From assembly GCA_002937505.1 (NCBI GenBank), contig PTJY01000001.1, positions 186,001-250,000 of the forward strand: 64,000 bases of DNA, in the 5' to 3' direction. Source of the stretch: Alphaproteobacteria bacterium MarineAlpha12_Bin1 (lineage in GTDB: Bacteria; Pseudomonadota; Alphaproteobacteria; UBA6615). Under the pieces are notes generated by a model. That model had not been told where the DNA came from. It saw only the letters and a list, made by a program, of their open reading frames with translations, and ran no database searches. A program made the translations under genes and the position numbers. Of the stretch, positions 26,755 to 34,391 are shown one piece after another (the stretch's first letter is position 1; the number at the start of each line of letters is the position of its first letter).

Positions 26755-27999
26755 TTAGTCGAATATATCTAATTCTATTTTCCAATTATTACCTTTAATG
26801 CGATCACTTAGACTTCTTAAAAAAGATGCAGAGTAAGCTCCATCAAAAGCTCTGTGGTCAAAAGATTGTGCGAGAACACCAATTGGACGAATAGCAATAG
26901 AATCGCATTCTCCATCTGAGATAACTACCGGCTTTTTTATAACACCATCCATCGACAAAATTGCAACCTGTGGCTGGTTAATTATTGGAGCAGTAATTAA
27001 AGTACCAAATGGACCAGAGTTAGAGATCGTATAGGTGCCTCCAGTTAGTTCCTCTGGTAAGAGCTTTTTCTTTCTTGCCCTGCTGGATAAATCGTGAATT
27101 TCTGTAGCTAATTCGGCAAGTGATTTAGACGCTGCATTTTTAATCACTGGAACAACCAAACCTTCAAAATCAAGATCTACAGCAATTCCAATATTTATTT
27201 GCTCATAAACAAACAGACTGTTTTCTTTAACCTCAGCGTTTATCTTTGGAAACTCTTTCAAAGTCTCACAAACTGCACTGACGATAAAAGGTAGATAAGT
27301 TAGTGAAAATCCTGCTTTTGATCTCCACTCATCCTGAACAGAGGATCGAATAGCGTCGATTTTAAAAAAATCTGCTTCTACTGCCTGCAAAACATGTGGG
27401 CTTACTTTTTTTGAAAGGAGCATGTGCTCTGCAGTAAGTTTTCGTATATTATCAAATGGAATTATAGTTTGCTCTTCTCTTGGAGCATCTGAATGGGATG
27501 TATTACCTAAGGTATTGCTATCTAAATACTCCATAACGTCGTCACGAGTAATTCGACCTCCTCTACCTGTACCTTTAATCTCATCAACATCCAGATCATA
27601 TTCTGAGAGCAGCCTACGAACTACAGGTGAGAGTGGTTTTCCTTTTGAATCTTTTTTACCAATTTTATTTTTTGATACAGAATCAAGCTTAGCTTCTTCA
27701 TTTAAAACTTCTAATTCTTTATCAGCCGTGTTTATTTCTTCAACCTGCTCCCCTGAATTTTCTTCCTTTCCATCATTTATGATGGCTAATGTTGTGCCAA
27801 CAGCAACAGTCTCACCTGCATTAACAAGTATCTCAACCAACTGACCATCAACCATGGAAGGAATTTCCATTTCTACTTTGTCCGTGGTTACATCAAAAAG
27901 ATTTTCACCGGCAGAAACTTGATCACCAATTTTTTTATGCCAAACAGACACTGTACCTTCTTCGACTGTCTCGCCAAGCTGAGGCATTATTATATTCAT
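26755..27999 (-). CDS. 2-oxoacid dehydrogenase complex E2 (dihydrolipoamide acyltransferase)
   Basis: This 414-residue core enzyme has one lipoyl domain (lipoylated Lys41 in TTDKVEMEIP), an acidic linker, a peripheral-subunit-binding domain near 120-160 (SPVVRRLLSEYDLD, GTGRGGRITRDDV) and a catalytic domain ending in SFDHRAFDGA with the active His. It accepts an acyl group from lipoyl-bound E1 product and passes it to CoA. It follows the E1-beta gene after 47 bases. No E3 lipoamide dehydrogenase lies nearby, so E3 must be shared with another complex. The general layout fits acetoin, pyruvate or branched-chain complexes. Confidence 0.92.
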   Translation of the reverse strand: MNIIMPQLGETVEEGTVSVWHKKIGDQVSAGENLFDVTTDKVEMEIPSMVDGQLVEILVNAGETVAVGTTLAIINDGKEENSGEQVEEINTADKELEVLNEEAKLDSVSKNKIGKKDSKGKPLSPVVRRLLSEYDLDVDEIKGTGRGGRITRDDVMEYLDSNTLGNTSHSDAPREEQTIIPFDNIRKLTAEHMLLSKKVSPHVLQAVEADFFKIDAIRSSVQDEWRSKAGFSLTYLPFIVSAVCETLKEFPKINAEVKENSLFVYEQINIGIAVDLDFEGLVVPVIKNAASKSLAELATEIHDLSSRARKKKLLPEELTGGTYTISNSGPFGTLITAPIINQPQVAILSMDGVIKKPVVISDGECDSIAIRPIGVLAQSFDHRAFDGAYSASFLRSLSDRIKGNNWKIELDIFD

Positions 28000-28046: not shown

Positions 28047-29024
28047 TTAGTTCATCGACTTTCTAACTTCTTCATAGATACGATCTACAGAAGGTATCAT
28101 CAAATCTTCCAGATGATCGGCCGACGCAAGTGGAATATGAGGAGTTGTTATACGAACAATCGGTCCATCAAGGTCAAAAAACATTTCTTCAGCGACAATT
28201 GAACTTAATTCAGCTCCCCAACCACATAGTCTAGGATTCTCCTCAACCGTAATCATCCGACCTGTGCGAGATACCTCTGAGAGAATAGTGCTGGTATCTA
28301 AAGGAACAAGTGATCTTACGTCTATAACCGTCGCTGAAATCCCATCAATTTCCTGGAGTCTATCTGCTGCTTCTAATGCGCGGGGAACCATAAGAGCAAG
28401 CGCTACTATTGTCACATCGCTGCCCTGTCTAAGAACCTTGGACTTTCCCAATTCTTCGATATGCTCTCCGTCAGGTACTGTGCCTTTTATCGCATAAAGA
28501 GATTTCTGTTCAAAAAATAAAACTGGATTATCATCTCTTATAGCCGCAGCTAATAAGCCCTTAACATCAGCAGGAGACGAAGGAGCAACCACTTTAATTC
28601 CTGGAATAGCCATTGCCCAATTTTCAACAGACTGAGAGTGCTGTGCTCCAAAACGAGAACCACCACCATTTGCTGTTCTAACAACTAATGGGACAGATAT
28701 TTGGCCATCTGTCATATACCTTGCTTTTGCCATCTGATTTGCGACTATATCCCAACAAACAGCCAGAAAATCAGAAAACATTATTTCGGCAATAGGCCTT
28801 AATCCTGTCATGGCTGCCCCCATAGCAGCCCCGAGTATTGCCTGTTCAGATATTGGTGTGTCTCTTACACGAATAGGACCAAACTCATCAAGTAACCCAA
28901 CAGTAGTTTTAAACACCCCTCCTGCTGCTGCTATATCCTCACCAAGAAACACTACGTTTTCGTCTCGTTTCATTTCTTGCCTAATACCATCCGCAACGGC
29001 TTCTCTATATGTTAATTCCGCCAT
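28047..29024 (-). CDS. 2-oxoacid/acetoin dehydrogenase E1 component, beta subunit
   Basis: A 325-residue transketolase-like beta subunit that completes the thiamine-diphosphate site. It opens with the typical LTYREAVADGI and GEDIA, and has the ThDP-activating Glu region in DTPISEQAILG, the MARYMT and GAQHSQS elements, and a C-terminal transketolase domain (VEENPRLCGWG). It overlaps the alpha-subunit gene by 13 bases, so the two are translationally coupled in a heterotetramer. Whether the substrate is acetoin, pyruvate or a branched 2-oxoacid is not clear from sequence. Confidence 0.92.
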   Translation of the reverse strand: MAELTYREAVADGIRQEMKRDENVVFLGEDIAAAGGVFKTTVGLLDEFGPIRVRDTPISEQAILGAAMGAAMTGLRPIAEIMFSDFLAVCWDIVANQMAKARYMTDGQISVPLVVRTANGGGSRFGAQHSQSVENWAMAIPGIKVVAPSSPADVKGLLAAAIRDDNPVLFFEQKSLYAIKGTVPDGEHIEELGKSKVLRQGSDVTIVALALMVPRALEAADRLQEIDGISATVIDVRSLVPLDTSTILSEVSRTGRMITVEENPRLCGWGAELSSIVAEEMFFDLDGPIVRITTPHIPLASADHLEDLMIPSVDRIYEEVRKSMN

Positions 29025-30043
29025 GTGGAACTCCCATCAGCCCATACTTCTGTGGCCATGACTTCTTCGGTCGGAGGTGGAGATGATTTAGCAATTTCAG
29101 TGGCCTCATCAACACGTTTCATTACGTCTGCTTCCATTTCTAAAACCTCATCTTCAGATAAACCAAATTCTAGTAAACGACTTCGATACATAGGAAGGGG
29201 ATCACGCTCCAACCAAGATTCGAGCTCCCCATCTGGTCTGTAGTCTCCAGGATCTGCTCGGGAGTGACCACTATGTCTATAAGTCTTAGCCTCTATAAGC
29301 GAAGGCCCTTCGCCTTCTCTCGCTTTTTCCATAGCTGCCTTAGCATGACGGTAAACCTCGTCCGCATCATTTCCATCTACTATTATTGATTCTAACCCAT
29401 AAGCACCTGCCCTATCAGCAGCTGGATTTTCAACTGCGGTTACTTCGCTTATGGGAGTGTATTCCATATAAAGATTATTCTCACAAACAAATATGACCGG
29501 TAATTTCCATACCTGGGCCATATTTAGCGCCTCATGAAAAGCGCCAATATTTGTTGTTCCATCGCCGAAGAAACAAACAGTAACCTGATTAGATTTTCTA
29601 TACTGCGCTGACCAGGCCGCACCAATTGCAATTGGTAGATGAGCTCCAATTATAGCATAAGAGCCCATTGCTCCATGCTCCACACTCGTAAGATGCATTG
29701 ATCCGCCCTTACCCCCAAGGAGCCCACATTGTCGACCCATAAGTTCTCCAAGTACACCTGTCATTGAGGCACCTCTTACCAACGTATGATTATGACCCCT
29801 GTATGTACAGAATGTGTAATCACCTTCTTTCATAGCGCCACCAAATCCGGCAGCGATCGCTTCTTGACCTAAGCCCAAATGGCTGGTTCCTTTAATTAGA
29901 TTCTGTAAAAAGAGATCATAAGCTTTTTGCTCGACATGCCTGCATTCCAACTGAAGACGAAACAACTCTTTCCTAACAGTTTCACCTATGTCATCGTTCG
30001 ACAAATAATTTTTAATTGATTTCTTTTCTGGCTCTTTTGCCAA
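29012..30043 (-). CDS. 2-oxoacid/acetoin dehydrogenase E1 component, alpha subunit
   Basis: This 343-residue ThDP-dependent subunit shows the thiamine-diphosphate/Mg motif GDGTTNIG ending in the ENN segment (VIFVCENN). The phospholoop is YRHSGHSRADPG. GKGGSMHLT and GSYAIIGAHLPIAIG are also present. The residues after ENN (LYMEYTPISEV) are nearer to acetoin-dehydrogenase-type than to the classical pyruvate-dehydrogenase GMGTS type, which mildly favours AcoA-like function. The start is a TTG, strongly supported by AAGGGAGGA 6 bases upstream. It lies 113 bases after an M24-family gene on the same strand. Confidence 0.92.
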   Translation of the reverse strand: MAKEPEKKSIKNYLSNDDIGETVRKELFRLQLECRHVEQKAYDLFLQNLIKGTSHLGLGQEAIAAGFGGAMKEGDYTFCTYRGHNHTLVRGASMTGVLGELMGRQCGLLGGKGGSMHLTSVEHGAMGSYAIIGAHLPIAIGAAWSAQYRKSNQVTVCFFGDGTTNIGAFHEALNMAQVWKLPVIFVCENNLYMEYTPISEVTAVENPAADRAGAYGLESIIVDGNDADEVYRHAKAAMEKAREGEGPSLIEAKTYRHSGHSRADPGDYRPDGELESWLERDPLPMYRSRLLEFGLSEDEVLEMEADVMKRVDEATEIAKSSPPPTEEVMATEVWADGSSTWRN

Positions 30044-30156: not shown

Positions 30157-31458
30157 TCAATATTTATGAGATATCGGTAATTCTTCAGCCGGAAATAGTG
30201 TTATAAGTCTGCATCCGTCATTAGTCACTATAACCTCTTCTTCAATTCTTGCAGCCGACATTCCATCACTCGCAGGACAAAAAGTCTCTAGAGCAAAGAC
30301 CATGCCTTCTTTAATTTCAAGAGGATGATCAAATGACACTAATCGACTAATAACTGGTCTCTCATGTAGATTGAGCCCAAGTCCATGTCCAAACTGAAGA
30401 CCAAATGCCTCCATTTCATTAGCAAATCCAAAATCTTCTGCCTTAGGCCACACTGCAGCAATCTGATCCGTTGTTGTCCCCGGCTTCACCAATTCTATAG
30501 CCGCGTCAATCCACTCTCTCGCCTTTTTATATGCGTCTTCTTGAGCATCAGTAGCCCGACCAATATTGAAGGTTCGATAATAGCAAGTTCTATAGCCATT
30601 GAATGATTGAATAATATCAAAAAATGCCTGATCACCTGGTCTAAAGATACGATCGGTAAAATTATGAGGGTGAGGAGAACACCTCTCTCCAGAAATAGCG
30701 TTTATTGCCTCAACATCATCTGATCCCAGCTCATAGAGTTTTTTGTTTGCTAAAGCTACAATATCAGATTCCCGAATCCCTGGCTTCAATTCTTCCATTA
30801 TCATATGATAAGTGCCATCAACCATCGCGGCAGCCTGGTTTAATAAAATTAGCTCATCCTGACTCTTAACCTCCCTAGCATCCAGCATCATTTGTTGACC
30901 ATCCAGAACAGTAATTCCTACACGTTCAAGTTCCATCTGCATGGGAGGTTCAATATAATCAACACCCACGGGTTGATCAGCTACACCTTCTTCAACGAGG
31001 ATTTCTTTTATTTCTTCAGCGTGCCCTCGCATCAAGCCGGCAGAAGGAGGAACCATACCTCTCATCCCCAGAAGGCCCGCCCGACAGTGATCAGGCTTAA
31101 GCCATGGAGCGTAGAGTCTGTGATGTAAGGCCGCAGAACCAAAGTCCCAAACATATGGATCTCCGTTACCTGTCAACAGGGAGAACCTGGTAAGCTTATC
31201 TCTCGACCACTCACCTATCACGGTACTTGTCATGTACCGTATGTTATTATTATCAAAACATAACATTGACCCTAAATCGGTTTCTGCTAGAGCAGCACGA
31301 AGACGAGCTAACCTATAATTATGTAAACGAGAAAAGTTTACTCGCTCTTCAAAATCAACATTTCTCTGTCCGGGTGCTGGAACCGCTTTATCCCATATGT
31401 GTCCAGGGTCTATATCATCAAGTTTTAGTACCCCTGAATCACTTTTATTTTCTGCCAT
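30157..31458 (-). CDS. M24-family (pita-bread fold) hydrolase/lyase with altered metal site
   Basis: A 433-residue creatinase/aminopeptidase-P-like protein; the general layout also recalls the DMSP lyase DddP. Retained positions include Asp281 (AFFDI), the His in QFGHGLGL, Glu in FALETF and Glu in RIEEEV. The second metal aspartate of the usual GYxxDxxRT motif is Cys292 (GYRTCYYRT). The N-terminal creatinase-like domain contains DNNNIRYMTST. The ATG at 31458 has GGAGGAG close upstream, so it is preferred over one 11 codons earlier. It is first in an apparent operon with E1-alpha, E1-beta and E2 genes. Peptidase, C-N hydrolase and lyase activities are all possible. Confidence 0.85.
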   Translation of the reverse strand: MAENKSDSGVLKLDDIDPGHIWDKAVPAPGQRNVDFEERVNFSRLHNYRLARLRAALAETDLGSMLCFDNNNIRYMTSTVIGEWSRDKLTRFSLLTGNGDPYVWDFGSAALHHRLYAPWLKPDHCRAGLLGMRGMVPPSAGLMRGHAEEIKEILVEEGVADQPVGVDYIEPPMQMELERVGITVLDGQQMMLDAREVKSQDELILLNQAAAMVDGTYHMIMEELKPGIRESDIVALANKKLYELGSDDVEAINAISGERCSPHPHNFTDRIFRPGDQAFFDIIQSFNGYRTCYYRTFNIGRATDAQEDAYKKAREWIDAAIELVKPGTTTDQIAAVWPKAEDFGFANEMEAFGLQFGHGLGLNLHERPVISRLVSFDHPLEIKEGMVFALETFCPASDGMSAARIEEEVIVTNDGCRLITLFPAEELPISHKY

Positions 31459-31705
31459 ATTTTCTCCTCCAATATCACCAGACAAAATCACTATGTTTAC
31501 CTAATATAGGCCTCTGAGTTTTCAGAGATTAACTAACATTCTAAGCTTTCCAGCCATGGATCATCATGTCAATTCAAAATAGCCTAGAATTTTTCATCTT
31601 ATTTAATTAAATTTATAATATTGTGGTGTTGCCACTGGTCAATGACATCTCTAGGGTCGACGACCGGAAATTATTAAAAAAAACTGGAGGGTTGGAGAGC
31701 CTTTC

Positions 31706-33409
31706 ATGACAAAAAATAATGTTAAACTAAACAGAAACAGGCGATCCATGATTGCTAATGGAGCGGCGACCTTAAGTAATGCGGTGGGTGTTACTCTAGG
31801 TCCAGCAGGATCAAACGTTTTGGTTGAAAAAGAATTGGGTCCTCCACAAGTTACTAATGATGGTAGCGTAATTGTTTCACAGATTGAATTCTCTAACAAT
31901 TATGAAAGCATTGGCGCTCGCCTGCTTCGAGAAGTAGCCCGAGAAACGGGCTCTGTAGCAAACGATGGCACAACAACCGCCGTTTTGCTAGCAAACTCAA
32001 TATTTTCTGAAGGTCTTCGTGCCGTTGAAGCAGACTTAGACCCTATAGGAATAAAGCGGGGAATAGACAGGGCTGTTTCAAAGTCATTGAAGCACATCTC
32101 CGCCTCAGCCAAACCAATCAATAAAATTAGTCAAGTCGCAGAGATTGCAACAACAGCAAGCAACAATGATTTAAAAATAGGGAAAGCCGTTGCACAAGCG
32201 TATTCAAAAACAGGTGAATTCGGTGAAATTTTTATCAAGTCAGGTAACTCGATAAAAGATCAAATAGAAATTAATAATGGGATGTGGTTCGATAGAGGAT
32301 ATATATCACGGGCTTTTGTAACTAATGAGGCAGACCTAAGCGCCGAACTACGAAATCCATTGATTCTTCTATACGGAAAAAAAATTAAAACTCTACAAGG
32401 GATTATTCCTTTCCTTGACAAGGCAATAGAGAAAAAGCGACCTCTTCTTATTATAGCCGAAGACATTGAACAGGAAATACTAGCAACGCTGGTGATAAAT
32501 AGAGAAAGAGGAGGTCTAAAAGTCGTCGCTGTTAAGTCGCCAGGGTTCTCTGAACGCAGGAGACAAATGCTGGATGACATCGCGATTATAACCGGCGCCG
32601 AAGTCATTTCAGGTGAGCCAGGTTTAGATCTAATGAATTCAAGCCCAGATCAAATGGGGACTGCCGGCACCGTAAAAATCACGGCCAGTAAAACAATAAT
32701 TATTGATGGAGGCGGTTCTCTCAAAAATATTAATAATAGATGCAAACTATTATCTAATTATCTTGAAAAATCTGACTCTAAAGAGGAAAGAGAGTTTTAC
32801 AGTCGAAGAATTGCAAAACTTAAGAGCTCTGTAGTCAATATAAAAGTCGGTGGCTTCACAGAACAGGAAATTACTGAAAGAAGTGAAAGGTATAACAAAG
32901 CACTTAAGTCAGTTTTCCAGGCAAAAAATAGTGGTTTTGTAGTCGGTGGTGGAATTATGTACCTGCGCGCCTCTTCGTTACTAGGATCTTTAAAAGGCAA
33001 GGATTGTGAAGAGCAGATAGGTATCAACATTGTTAGACGGGCCCTTCTAAAGCCTTGCTATCAAATCCTGGAAAATGCCGGAGGAGACATTAGCCAGTCC
33101 ATGGACTTTATTTCAAGCCACACCAATCCCAATATGGGAATGGACGCTAGATCATTAAGTTATGTTGATATGATAGAAAAAGGAATTATTGATTCTGCTG
33201 GAGTCCTCAGCACTGCTCTCTCTAAAGCTTCATCAATTGCCGGCTCTCTAATAACCAGTATGGCAATCGTTCCTGAAAAGAAAATTAAGACGTTTCCGCG
33301 TCACCCCTTTGCATGCAAATGTTCCGACCATGATCACCATCATTACCCGGGAGACCCTTATCATGCTCATCACCACGCACATCCAAATACTCCGGCGCAT
33401 AACCACTAG
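31706..33409 (+). CDS. Divergent GroEL-type chaperonin with His-rich C-terminus
   Basis: The 567-residue HSP60 homologue aligns almost without gaps to E. coli GroEL. Asp52, NDGTTTA (Asp87), the LLIIAED and LATLVIN apical segments, and VVGGG are all present. The position of catalytic Asp398 is Lys398 (YNKAL). The usual Gly-Gly-Met tail is replaced by a roughly 37-residue tail with 12 His and 2 Cys. No groES is adjacent. It may be a specialised, slow or non-cycling chaperonin, possibly metal-binding through its tail; M. tuberculosis GroEL1 is a precedent for a His-rich tail. Upstream, TATAAT at 31614 and a GGAGGGTTGGAGAG element before the ATG suggest its own promoter and strong translation. 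Confidence 0.92.
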   Translation: MTKNNVKLNRNRRSMIANGAATLSNAVGVTLGPAGSNVLVEKELGPPQVTNDGSVIVSQIEFSNNYESIGARLLREVARETGSVANDGTTTAVLLANSIFSEGLRAVEADLDPIGIKRGIDRAVSKSLKHISASAKPINKISQVAEIATTASNNDLKIGKAVAQAYSKTGEFGEIFIKSGNSIKDQIEINNGMWFDRGYISRAFVTNEADLSAELRNPLILLYGKKIKTLQGIIPFLDKAIEKKRPLLIIAEDIEQEILATLVINRERGGLKVVAVKSPGFSERRRQMLDDIAIITGAEVISGEPGLDLMNSSPDQMGTAGTVKITASKTIIIDGGGSLKNINNRCKLLSNYLEKSDSKEEREFYSRRIAKLKSSVVNIKVGGFTEQEITERSERYNKALKSVFQAKNSGFVVGGGIMYLRASSLLGSLKGKDCEEQIGINIVRRALLKPCYQILENAGGDISQSMDFISSHTNPNMGMDARSLSYVDMIEKGIIDSAGVLSTALSKASSIAGSLITSMAIVPEKKIKTFPRHPFACKCSDHDHHHYPGDPYHAHHHAHPNTPAHNH

Positions 33410-33493: not shown

Positions 33494-33808
33494 CTAAACC
33501 GGGGATAGAATATGAATAGTACGCTCTGCTATAAGGTCTTTTGATTTTGCTGCATAAGCCAACATATGATCTGACGAAGCGTGCGCCTTGAGGGCGTCCA
33601 TACTCTCCCATTCCTCAACTACAACAAATGAATCATCACCAAATTTAGTCTGTATCGAACCACCATCCTCAGTATCGATAACAGGCTGATATTGAATGCA
33701 TCCATTTTCAGCAAGAACCAGGGGTACGTTATCAAGAAAAAGTTTTAATAAATCCTTACGCAACCCCGTCTTGGCTTTAATTACAGCTACGATATGAACC
33801 GATTGCAT
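33494..33808 (-). CDS. ABM-domain (antibiotic biosynthesis monooxygenase / YgiN-like) protein
   Basis: A 104-residue ferredoxin-like dimeric protein of the ABM family. HIVAVIKAKTG begins the first strand. A central VVVEEWESMDALKAHASSDHM, with an aromatic-acidic pair and the His, is typical of the YgiN/LsrG-like branch. Members oxidise quinols or isomerise small carbonyl compounds without cofactor. It stands alone, convergent with the GroEL-like gene. The function is unassigned; the annotation rests on the fold pattern. Confidence 0.83.
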   Translation of the reverse strand: MQSVHIVAVIKAKTGLRKDLLKLFLDNVPLVLAENGCIQYQPVIDTEDGGSIQTKFGDDSFVVVEEWESMDALKAHASSDHMLAYAAKSKDLIAERTIHILSPV

Positions 33809-33896: not shown

Positions 33897-34391
33897 ATGA
33901 ATGACCAAGATGTAAAAAAGTTTCAGGTAGTGTTTGATTGTGATGCTCGTGCAGTAGGTAAAATGCGCTGTGAGATGGATGTGCGTCTAACACACCCTGA
34001 AAAACTTCACTGGGAATTTGCCTCAGATGAATATGGTTTTCATGGTGGTGACGGAACTGCTCCACTCCCAATTGCATACTTTATGGCGGGTTTAACCAGC
34101 TGTTTAATGACCCAGTTCCGAGCTTTTTCCAAACGTCTGAGAGTGAATGTTAAAGATGTAAATATTTATTGTGAGTGTCAATGGGAAGCTACACAGGTTG
34201 GTCGTGAACCCTATGAGTCCAGTCCCAAAAGCATCCGCATGGATATGGTGGTGGAAAGCGATTCGACCACAGAAGAAATCACAAAAGTTATAAATGCAGC
34301 TAAGAAGGGATGTTTCATAGAGCAGATGATGAATAAACAAAATAATATCGAACACAGACTTAAAGTTGGTGATGAGTGGATGAACGTTTAA
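33897..34391 (+). CDS. OsmC-family protein
   Basis: A 164-residue member of the OsmC/Ohr superfamily of thiol peroxidases. The two cysteines lie in the expected places, one in LTSCLMTQF and one in KKGCFIEQM, consistent with Cys-dependent reduction of organic hydroperoxides. The N-terminus is not typical of Ohr, so a general OsmC-like name is used. It is followed immediately by a 50-codon open stretch and a small membrane-protein gene. It is possibly related to oxidative stress, as an inference from family only. Confidence 0.87.
   Translation: MNDQDVKKFQVVFDCDARAVGKMRCEMDVRLTHPEKLHWEFASDEYGFHGGDGTAPLPIAYFMAGLTSCLMTQFRAFSKRLRVNVKDVNIYCECQWEATQVGREPYESSPKSIRMDMVVESDSTTEEITKVINAAKKGCFIEQMMNKQNNIEHRLKVGDEWMNV

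Follow-up and report, generated by a model that had tools for sequence, protein, structure and literature searches.

Why do many bacteria retain additional GroEL proteins, and what is the role of the unusual tails that some of these carry? These questions are raised by a locus in Alphaproteobacteria bacterium MarineAlpha12_Bin1, where a GroEL paralogue lies within the window (the whole 64,000-nucleotide stretch of DNA analyzed here). The 2.34-Mb genome (12 contigs) encodes exactly two GroELs and one GroES, located as follows:

31706..33409, + strand: GroEL paralogue P0001, 567 amino acids, comprising a type I chaperonin body (residues 1-530) and a replacement tail
C1:416448-417956: canonical groEL of the same genome, with Asp398, a GGM tail and an adjoining groES
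C1:416448-418363: canonical groESL pair, the possible presence of which elsewhere in the genome had been raised in the original prediction

The open reading frame of P0001 starts with ATG and contains no internal stop. Its product can be aligned to the genome's own canonical GroEL with no gaps (41% identity over 525 residues), and the Cpn60_TCP1 domain (PF00118) covers residues 23-525 at 214.6 bits against a cut-off of 34.3. The protein passes the broader PRK GroEL subfamily models (PRK12849, PRK12850, PRK00013, PRK12851) and falls below the cut-off of the NCBIfam GroEL equivalog TIGR02348 (523.8 vs 582.1 bits). Residues are numbered according to E. coli GroEL (groL, UniProt, Met = 1), which places the D52, D87 and D398 of the literature correctly. 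Alignment to this reference bears out the two features first noticed in the sequence: Lys is present at position 398 with Asp52 and Asp87 retained, and from residue 531 the GGM tail is replaced by 37 residues that include 12 His and two Cys.

A search of 60 relatives recovered five further copies of the paralogue at 53-91% identity, two of them in congeneric species and three elsewhere in the family, with all other GroELs at most 44% identical to P0001. In a tree of 45 sequences (44 different rows, none mycobacterial), the six paralogues form one clade with 100/100 support, the inner order of which is unsure due to long branches; the 39 comparison GroELs include a few genes taken twice. All six members combine Lys398 with the His-rich tail, a clade for which a check had been suggested at the outset, and Asp398, the occurrence of which in close homologues had been regarded as incompatible with the original prediction, is found in none of them. 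The bodies of the clade members are as little as 50% identical. In a scan of approximately 85,000 species genomes, the exact tail DNA pattern occurred in only five records beyond the genome itself, all of them alphaproteobacterial MAGs and one labelled Rhodospirillaceae. Matches in the class sample were confined to the same bacterial family, and the exact pattern was absent from IMG/VR. Likewise, protein searches of 388 genomes of the phylum and 357 of the class (E <= 1e-139) detected no relatives outside the family, and no plasmid GroEL reached 60% identity to the paralogue (best approximately 43%).

The genes surrounding the paralogue provide the first indication of what it may do:

30157..31458, - strand: M24 ‘pita-bread’ metalloenzyme-family protein, the divergent neighbour and proposed client
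29012..30043, - strand: 2-oxoacid dehydrogenase E1 alpha
28047..29024, - strand: 2-oxoacid dehydrogenase E1 beta
26755..27999, - strand: 2-oxoacid dehydrogenase E2
33494..33808, - strand: ABM-domain (PF03992, ‘antibiotic biosynthesis monooxygenase’) protein, the next gene, near the paralogue in at least four of the six genomes

The M24 gene is divergent from the paralogue in all six genomes, where the M24 proteins are 88-98% identical, and of the 24 genomes in the family, the six with the paralogue are also the only ones with M24 at 88% identity or more. Wherever the contig extends, M24 is followed by the genes for E1 alpha, E1 beta and E2 (among the open reading frames listed for G010, a longer antisense one occupies the E1 beta position, and the G014 contig runs out), and the flanks beyond this block differ between genera. 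Because these six genomes have a common descent, the linkage counts as a single retained event. Genes for metal transport or stress responses are not found in the block in these genomes. It had also been stated that neither groES nor a monooxygenase gene is adjacent. The former holds, while the latter needs a slight correction given the ABM domain next door, which is a fold label only. In another family, a small ABM-like protein (L097:1148-1456) likewise precedes an M24 homologue of 71% identity. Further along, the window encodes an OsmC-like protein (33897-34391) that matches the NCBIfam OsmC-related (seleno)protein model NF041052.

Regulation appears to differ between the two GroELs. A CIRCE-like element with two mismatches lies approximately 57 bp upstream of the canonical groES. 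As CIRCE is absent from the window with up to three mismatches allowed, the paralogue is probably outside the HrcA heat-shock control that this element implies. The divergent intergenic region contains a block, TGTCAATT(C/T)AAAA at 31567-31579, which is common to four genomes and is possibly a shared operator or promoter element.

The M24 protein is itself unusual. Its metal-ligand positions read D-C-H-E-E, such that four of the five classical dinuclear ligands are retained and at the fifth, equivalent to MetAP D108, every subfamily member examined has Cys in place of Asp. On the basis of these residues the protein likely binds metal, at what would be an unusual site, although the Cys found throughout the subfamily weakens the case. 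The protein is not the DMSP lyase DddP, given that it reaches 109.7 bits where the NCBIfam cut-off is 600 and lacks the Asp ligand set. This Cys-ligand subfamily (motif GYRTCYYRT; 30157-31458, L072, L096-L105) occurs in many alphaproteobacterial genera. Homologues of 66-71% identity are present in eight other genera without a GroEL or COG0523 gene in evidence beside them, in genomes whose GroELs are at most 44% identical to P0001; hence, the M24 enzyme has no universal need for this chaperonin. Most of these homologues accompany E1 genes, an aldehyde dehydrogenase and sugar-type ABC transporters, and those in small (1.4-Mb) genomes are found with iolE/iolC/iolB-like inositol genes. The genome studied here also encodes a second M24 paralogue (G000:C8:91814-93022; L077:6785-8044), approximately 41% identical, which shares the Cys-for-Asp change and has neither a chaperonin nor a COG0523 gene alongside.

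More distant homologues (approximately 50% identity) in the same bacterial family have a different neighbour. In G009, G011 and G015 a COG0523/CobW-type GTPase, a member of a metallochaperone family, adjoins the M24 gene or is one gene off, and in G019 it is approximately 1 kb away. Three of the GTPase genes near such homologues are:

L075:1-1071: COG0523/CobW-type GTPase
L076:9275-10342: COG0523/CobW-type GTPase
L106:810-1994: COG0523/CobW-type GTPase

With either a COG0523 protein or a His/Cys-tailed chaperonin beside M24, a candidate metal-delivery protein repeatedly accompanies M24 in this family. The COG0523 parallel is limited to four related genomes, as no COG0523-linked M24 type was detected in a search across the class at E <= 1e-150 (a strict threshold, in a sample without a positive control).

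Linkage of this kind may reflect a chaperonin dedicated to folding or assembly alone, serving M24 and/or the E1 alpha2-beta2/E2 complex with a tail whose role is to tune the cavity or retain the client and whose metal binding is incidental. The persistence of E1 alpha, E1 beta and E2 in the block would fit such a role. Dedicated GroEL-like proteins are known or proposed elsewhere (gbu, PMC10653785; MmoG, PMC9324122), and GroEL tails do touch clients (PMC5497066). We nevertheless consider this explanation rather unlikely, given that a folding-only role leaves unexplained why Cys-X-Cys and DHDHHH are residue-invariant in proteins whose bodies have diverged to 50% identity. These motifs lie in the tail:

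33296..33406, + strand: His/Cys tail PRHPFACKCSDHDHHHYPGDPYHAHHHAHPNTPAHNH, in place of the GGM tail

Across the six genomes, 25 of the 26 residues of the tail core (RHPFACKCSDHDHHHYPGDPYHxHHH) are invariant, compared with 193 of 530 columns of the body and 20 in its best 26-column stretch. Together with the presence of Lys398 in six of six members and none of the 39 other GroELs, this excludes chance. Pairs with 50-59% body identity have tail cores differing by 0-1 amino acid and 13-18 bases; the base differences are nearly all synonymous, with up to 18 synonymous codon changes. Between this species and G002, dN/dS is approximately 0.15 for the body, 0.02 for the tail and 0.02 for the M24 gene. 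The synonymous-rich differences and low dN/dS of the tail point to strong selection at the protein level rather than recent transfer. The paralogue is thus real, conserved and under selection, and these ratios rule out a pseudogene.

The tail is predicted from its composition to bind metal. Cu(II) is bound in vitro by DHDHHHGHAH, the tail of mycobacterial GroEL1 (PMC10170517). H. pylori HspA has a His/Cys tail that binds Ni, and hydrogenase maturation is impaired when this tail is deleted (PMC3856676). The resemblance to the Cu-binding tail, combined with altered ATPase and substrate-face residues, would suit a protein that buffers or sequesters metal, or a holdase acting under stress, without a client of its own; a role of this kind has been proposed for mycobacterial GroEL1. 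Such a role is unlikely for a protein that is paired with a single catabolic gene block in all six genomes, with no metal-transport or stress genes there, and that retains the rest of its ATP pocket.

Changes in the body itself include those at three sites:

32897..32899, + strand: Lys398 codon AAA, replacing the ATPase residue Asp398
33005..33007, + strand: Cys434 codon, clade-specific, equatorial and near the ring-ring interface
33059..33097, + strand: inter-ring contact strip, residues 452-464, with Arg452 replaced by Tyr and Val464 by Gln in P0001

The Asp52, Asp87 and Asp398 set of type I chaperonins is incomplete in the clade, where residue 398 is Lys in six of six members and Asp in all 39 other GroELs. 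Residue 434 is Cys in all six and E, D, N, H, A or S in the others. Six further residues that are invariant in the 39 others are changed throughout the clade: R452 (Y/C/M/G/G/Y), P202 (R in six of six), Y203 (A/A/K/A/A/H), K327 (A/S/V), and both E409 and R501 (retained in none). V464, which is Val in 31, Ile in seven and Leu in one of the others, is Gln or Met in all six. As D83, R58 and E209 are likewise lost, three salt-bridge pairs are gone from the clade, namely D83-K327, R58-E209 and E409-R501; the latter two we take to be T-state pairs of GroEL. In GroEL, D83 pairs with K327, and R452, E461 and V464 take part in a contact between the rings (PMC3326522), while the single-ring mutant SR-1 is altered at R452, E461, S463 and V464 (PMC3813556). 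These losses suggest that ring pairing would be weaker and allostery altered in the clade.

Other elements of the machine are retained. These include D52, D87, R197, E386, F204, L237, L259 and V263, the nucleotide-binding core (Asp52, Asp87, Thr30-Leu-Gly-Pro, Gly414-Gly415 and Asp495), and most apical-face and GroES-contact residues. GroEL D398A binds ATP normally and has 2-3% of wild-type ATPase activity, yet retains GroES binding, encapsulation and folding (PMC3326522, PMC3813556). By analogy, the paralogue has presumably lost ATPase activity, though Lys at this position could act differently from the Ala of D398A. AlphaFold2 models were set aside, with mean pLDDT values of 35.8 for the paralogue (four-row alignment) and 33.4 for M24 (five-row alignment).

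It is improbable that the paralogue is a functionally ordinary second GroEL that tolerates Lys398 and cycles with GroES. While the protein is full-length, under purifying selection and equipped with most GroES-contact residues, the otherwise invariant D398 is replaced in all six members together with R452, K327, E409 and R501, and the score remains below the GroEL equivalog cut-off. Decay of a duplicate, which might be suspected from the long branches and the many conserved sites that have changed, is hardly credible with the frame open in six genomes and the dN/dS values given above.

We instead favour, tentatively and at slightly below an even chance, a type I chaperonin dedicated to the pathway encoded next to it and, most likely, to the divergent M24 enzyme, with a slow or one-shot cycle and a metal-binding tail that would help to fold and metallate its client. 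The paralogue would bind ATP and share the single GroES of the genome. Its cage, possibly a single ring, would close once and reopen very slowly. Seven tails would lie at the cavity base, as in GroEL, and bind a transition metal through Cys537/Cys539 and the DHDHHH cluster. There they would touch the unfolded M24 chain and hand over the metal during folding. The choice of M24 as client follows from the linkage and from PepQ, a pita-bread metalloprotease of the M24 family in E. coli and a stringent GroEL substrate, which was folded in a non-cycling SR1-GroES complex and whose folding intermediate is contacted by the GroEL C-terminal tails and pulled toward the cavity base (PMC5497066). Taken together, the D398A, PepQ, GroEL1 and HspA literature suggests a closed cage with metal-charged tails beside a folding pita-bread domain. 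The original prediction of a holding or metal-handling chaperonin with abnormal cycling agrees with the Lys398 clade, the lost contacts, the invariant tail and the M24 link, except for holding: folding in a slow or one-shot cage is likelier than a pure holdase role because D398A folds and because Asp52, Asp87 and most of the apical face are kept. The more specific proposal of a natural metallochaperone-chaperonin, in which a one-shot and possibly single-ring cage inserts metal into one M24 client via its His/Cys tail, is possible but on balance doubtful.

Comparison with known systems clarifies what is distinctive about the paralogue. It resembles canonical GroEL/Cpn60 in family, domain order, Asp52/Asp87 and most apical residues, but differs in its Lys398, Cys434 and His/Cys tail, its lost ring and T-state contacts, and the lack of an adjacent groES and CIRCE. 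Mycobacterial GroEL1 (Cpn60.1) is also a GroEL paralogue with DHDHHH in a His-rich C-terminal tail, a feature of its group that P0001 shares with 12 His in 37 residues; the marine tail, however, is longer and contains Cys-X-Cys, and the marine protein has a paired M24 gene and, in what may be a further difference, Lys398. MmoG/MimG and the gbu-cluster GroEL-like proteins are likewise encoded beside enzyme genes that they are thought or shown to serve (PMC9324122, PMC10653785), and a protein of the latter type is required for the gbu pathway at 37 C (PMC10653785). The paralogue differs from both in its metal-type tail, and neither a soluble diiron monooxygenase operon nor gbu genes were found beside it, its neighbours being M24, E1 alpha, E1 beta, E2 and the ABM protein. 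Of the positions altered in engineered SR-1, D398A and their combination, two of the four SR-1 positions (R452, V464) and D398 are naturally changed in the paralogue, which nonetheless has Lys rather than Ala at 398, keeps Asp at 461 and carries many further changes. H. pylori HspA and SlyD are chaperones with a His/Cys-rich metal-binding C-terminus that act in metalloenzyme maturation (PMC3856676); whereas these are a GroES co-chaperonin and an FKBP respectively, the tail of the paralogue would lie within the cage.

Asp398, the residue classically tied to GroEL ATPase activity, is replaceable in nature, and its replacement has been maintained. In addition, the M24 partner shares its family with PepQ, which serves as the model client in work on tail contact. 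With a tail, an ATPase switch, ring contacts and a candidate client in one conserved package, the idea of a client-tuned, cofactor-delivering chaperonin becomes directly testable.
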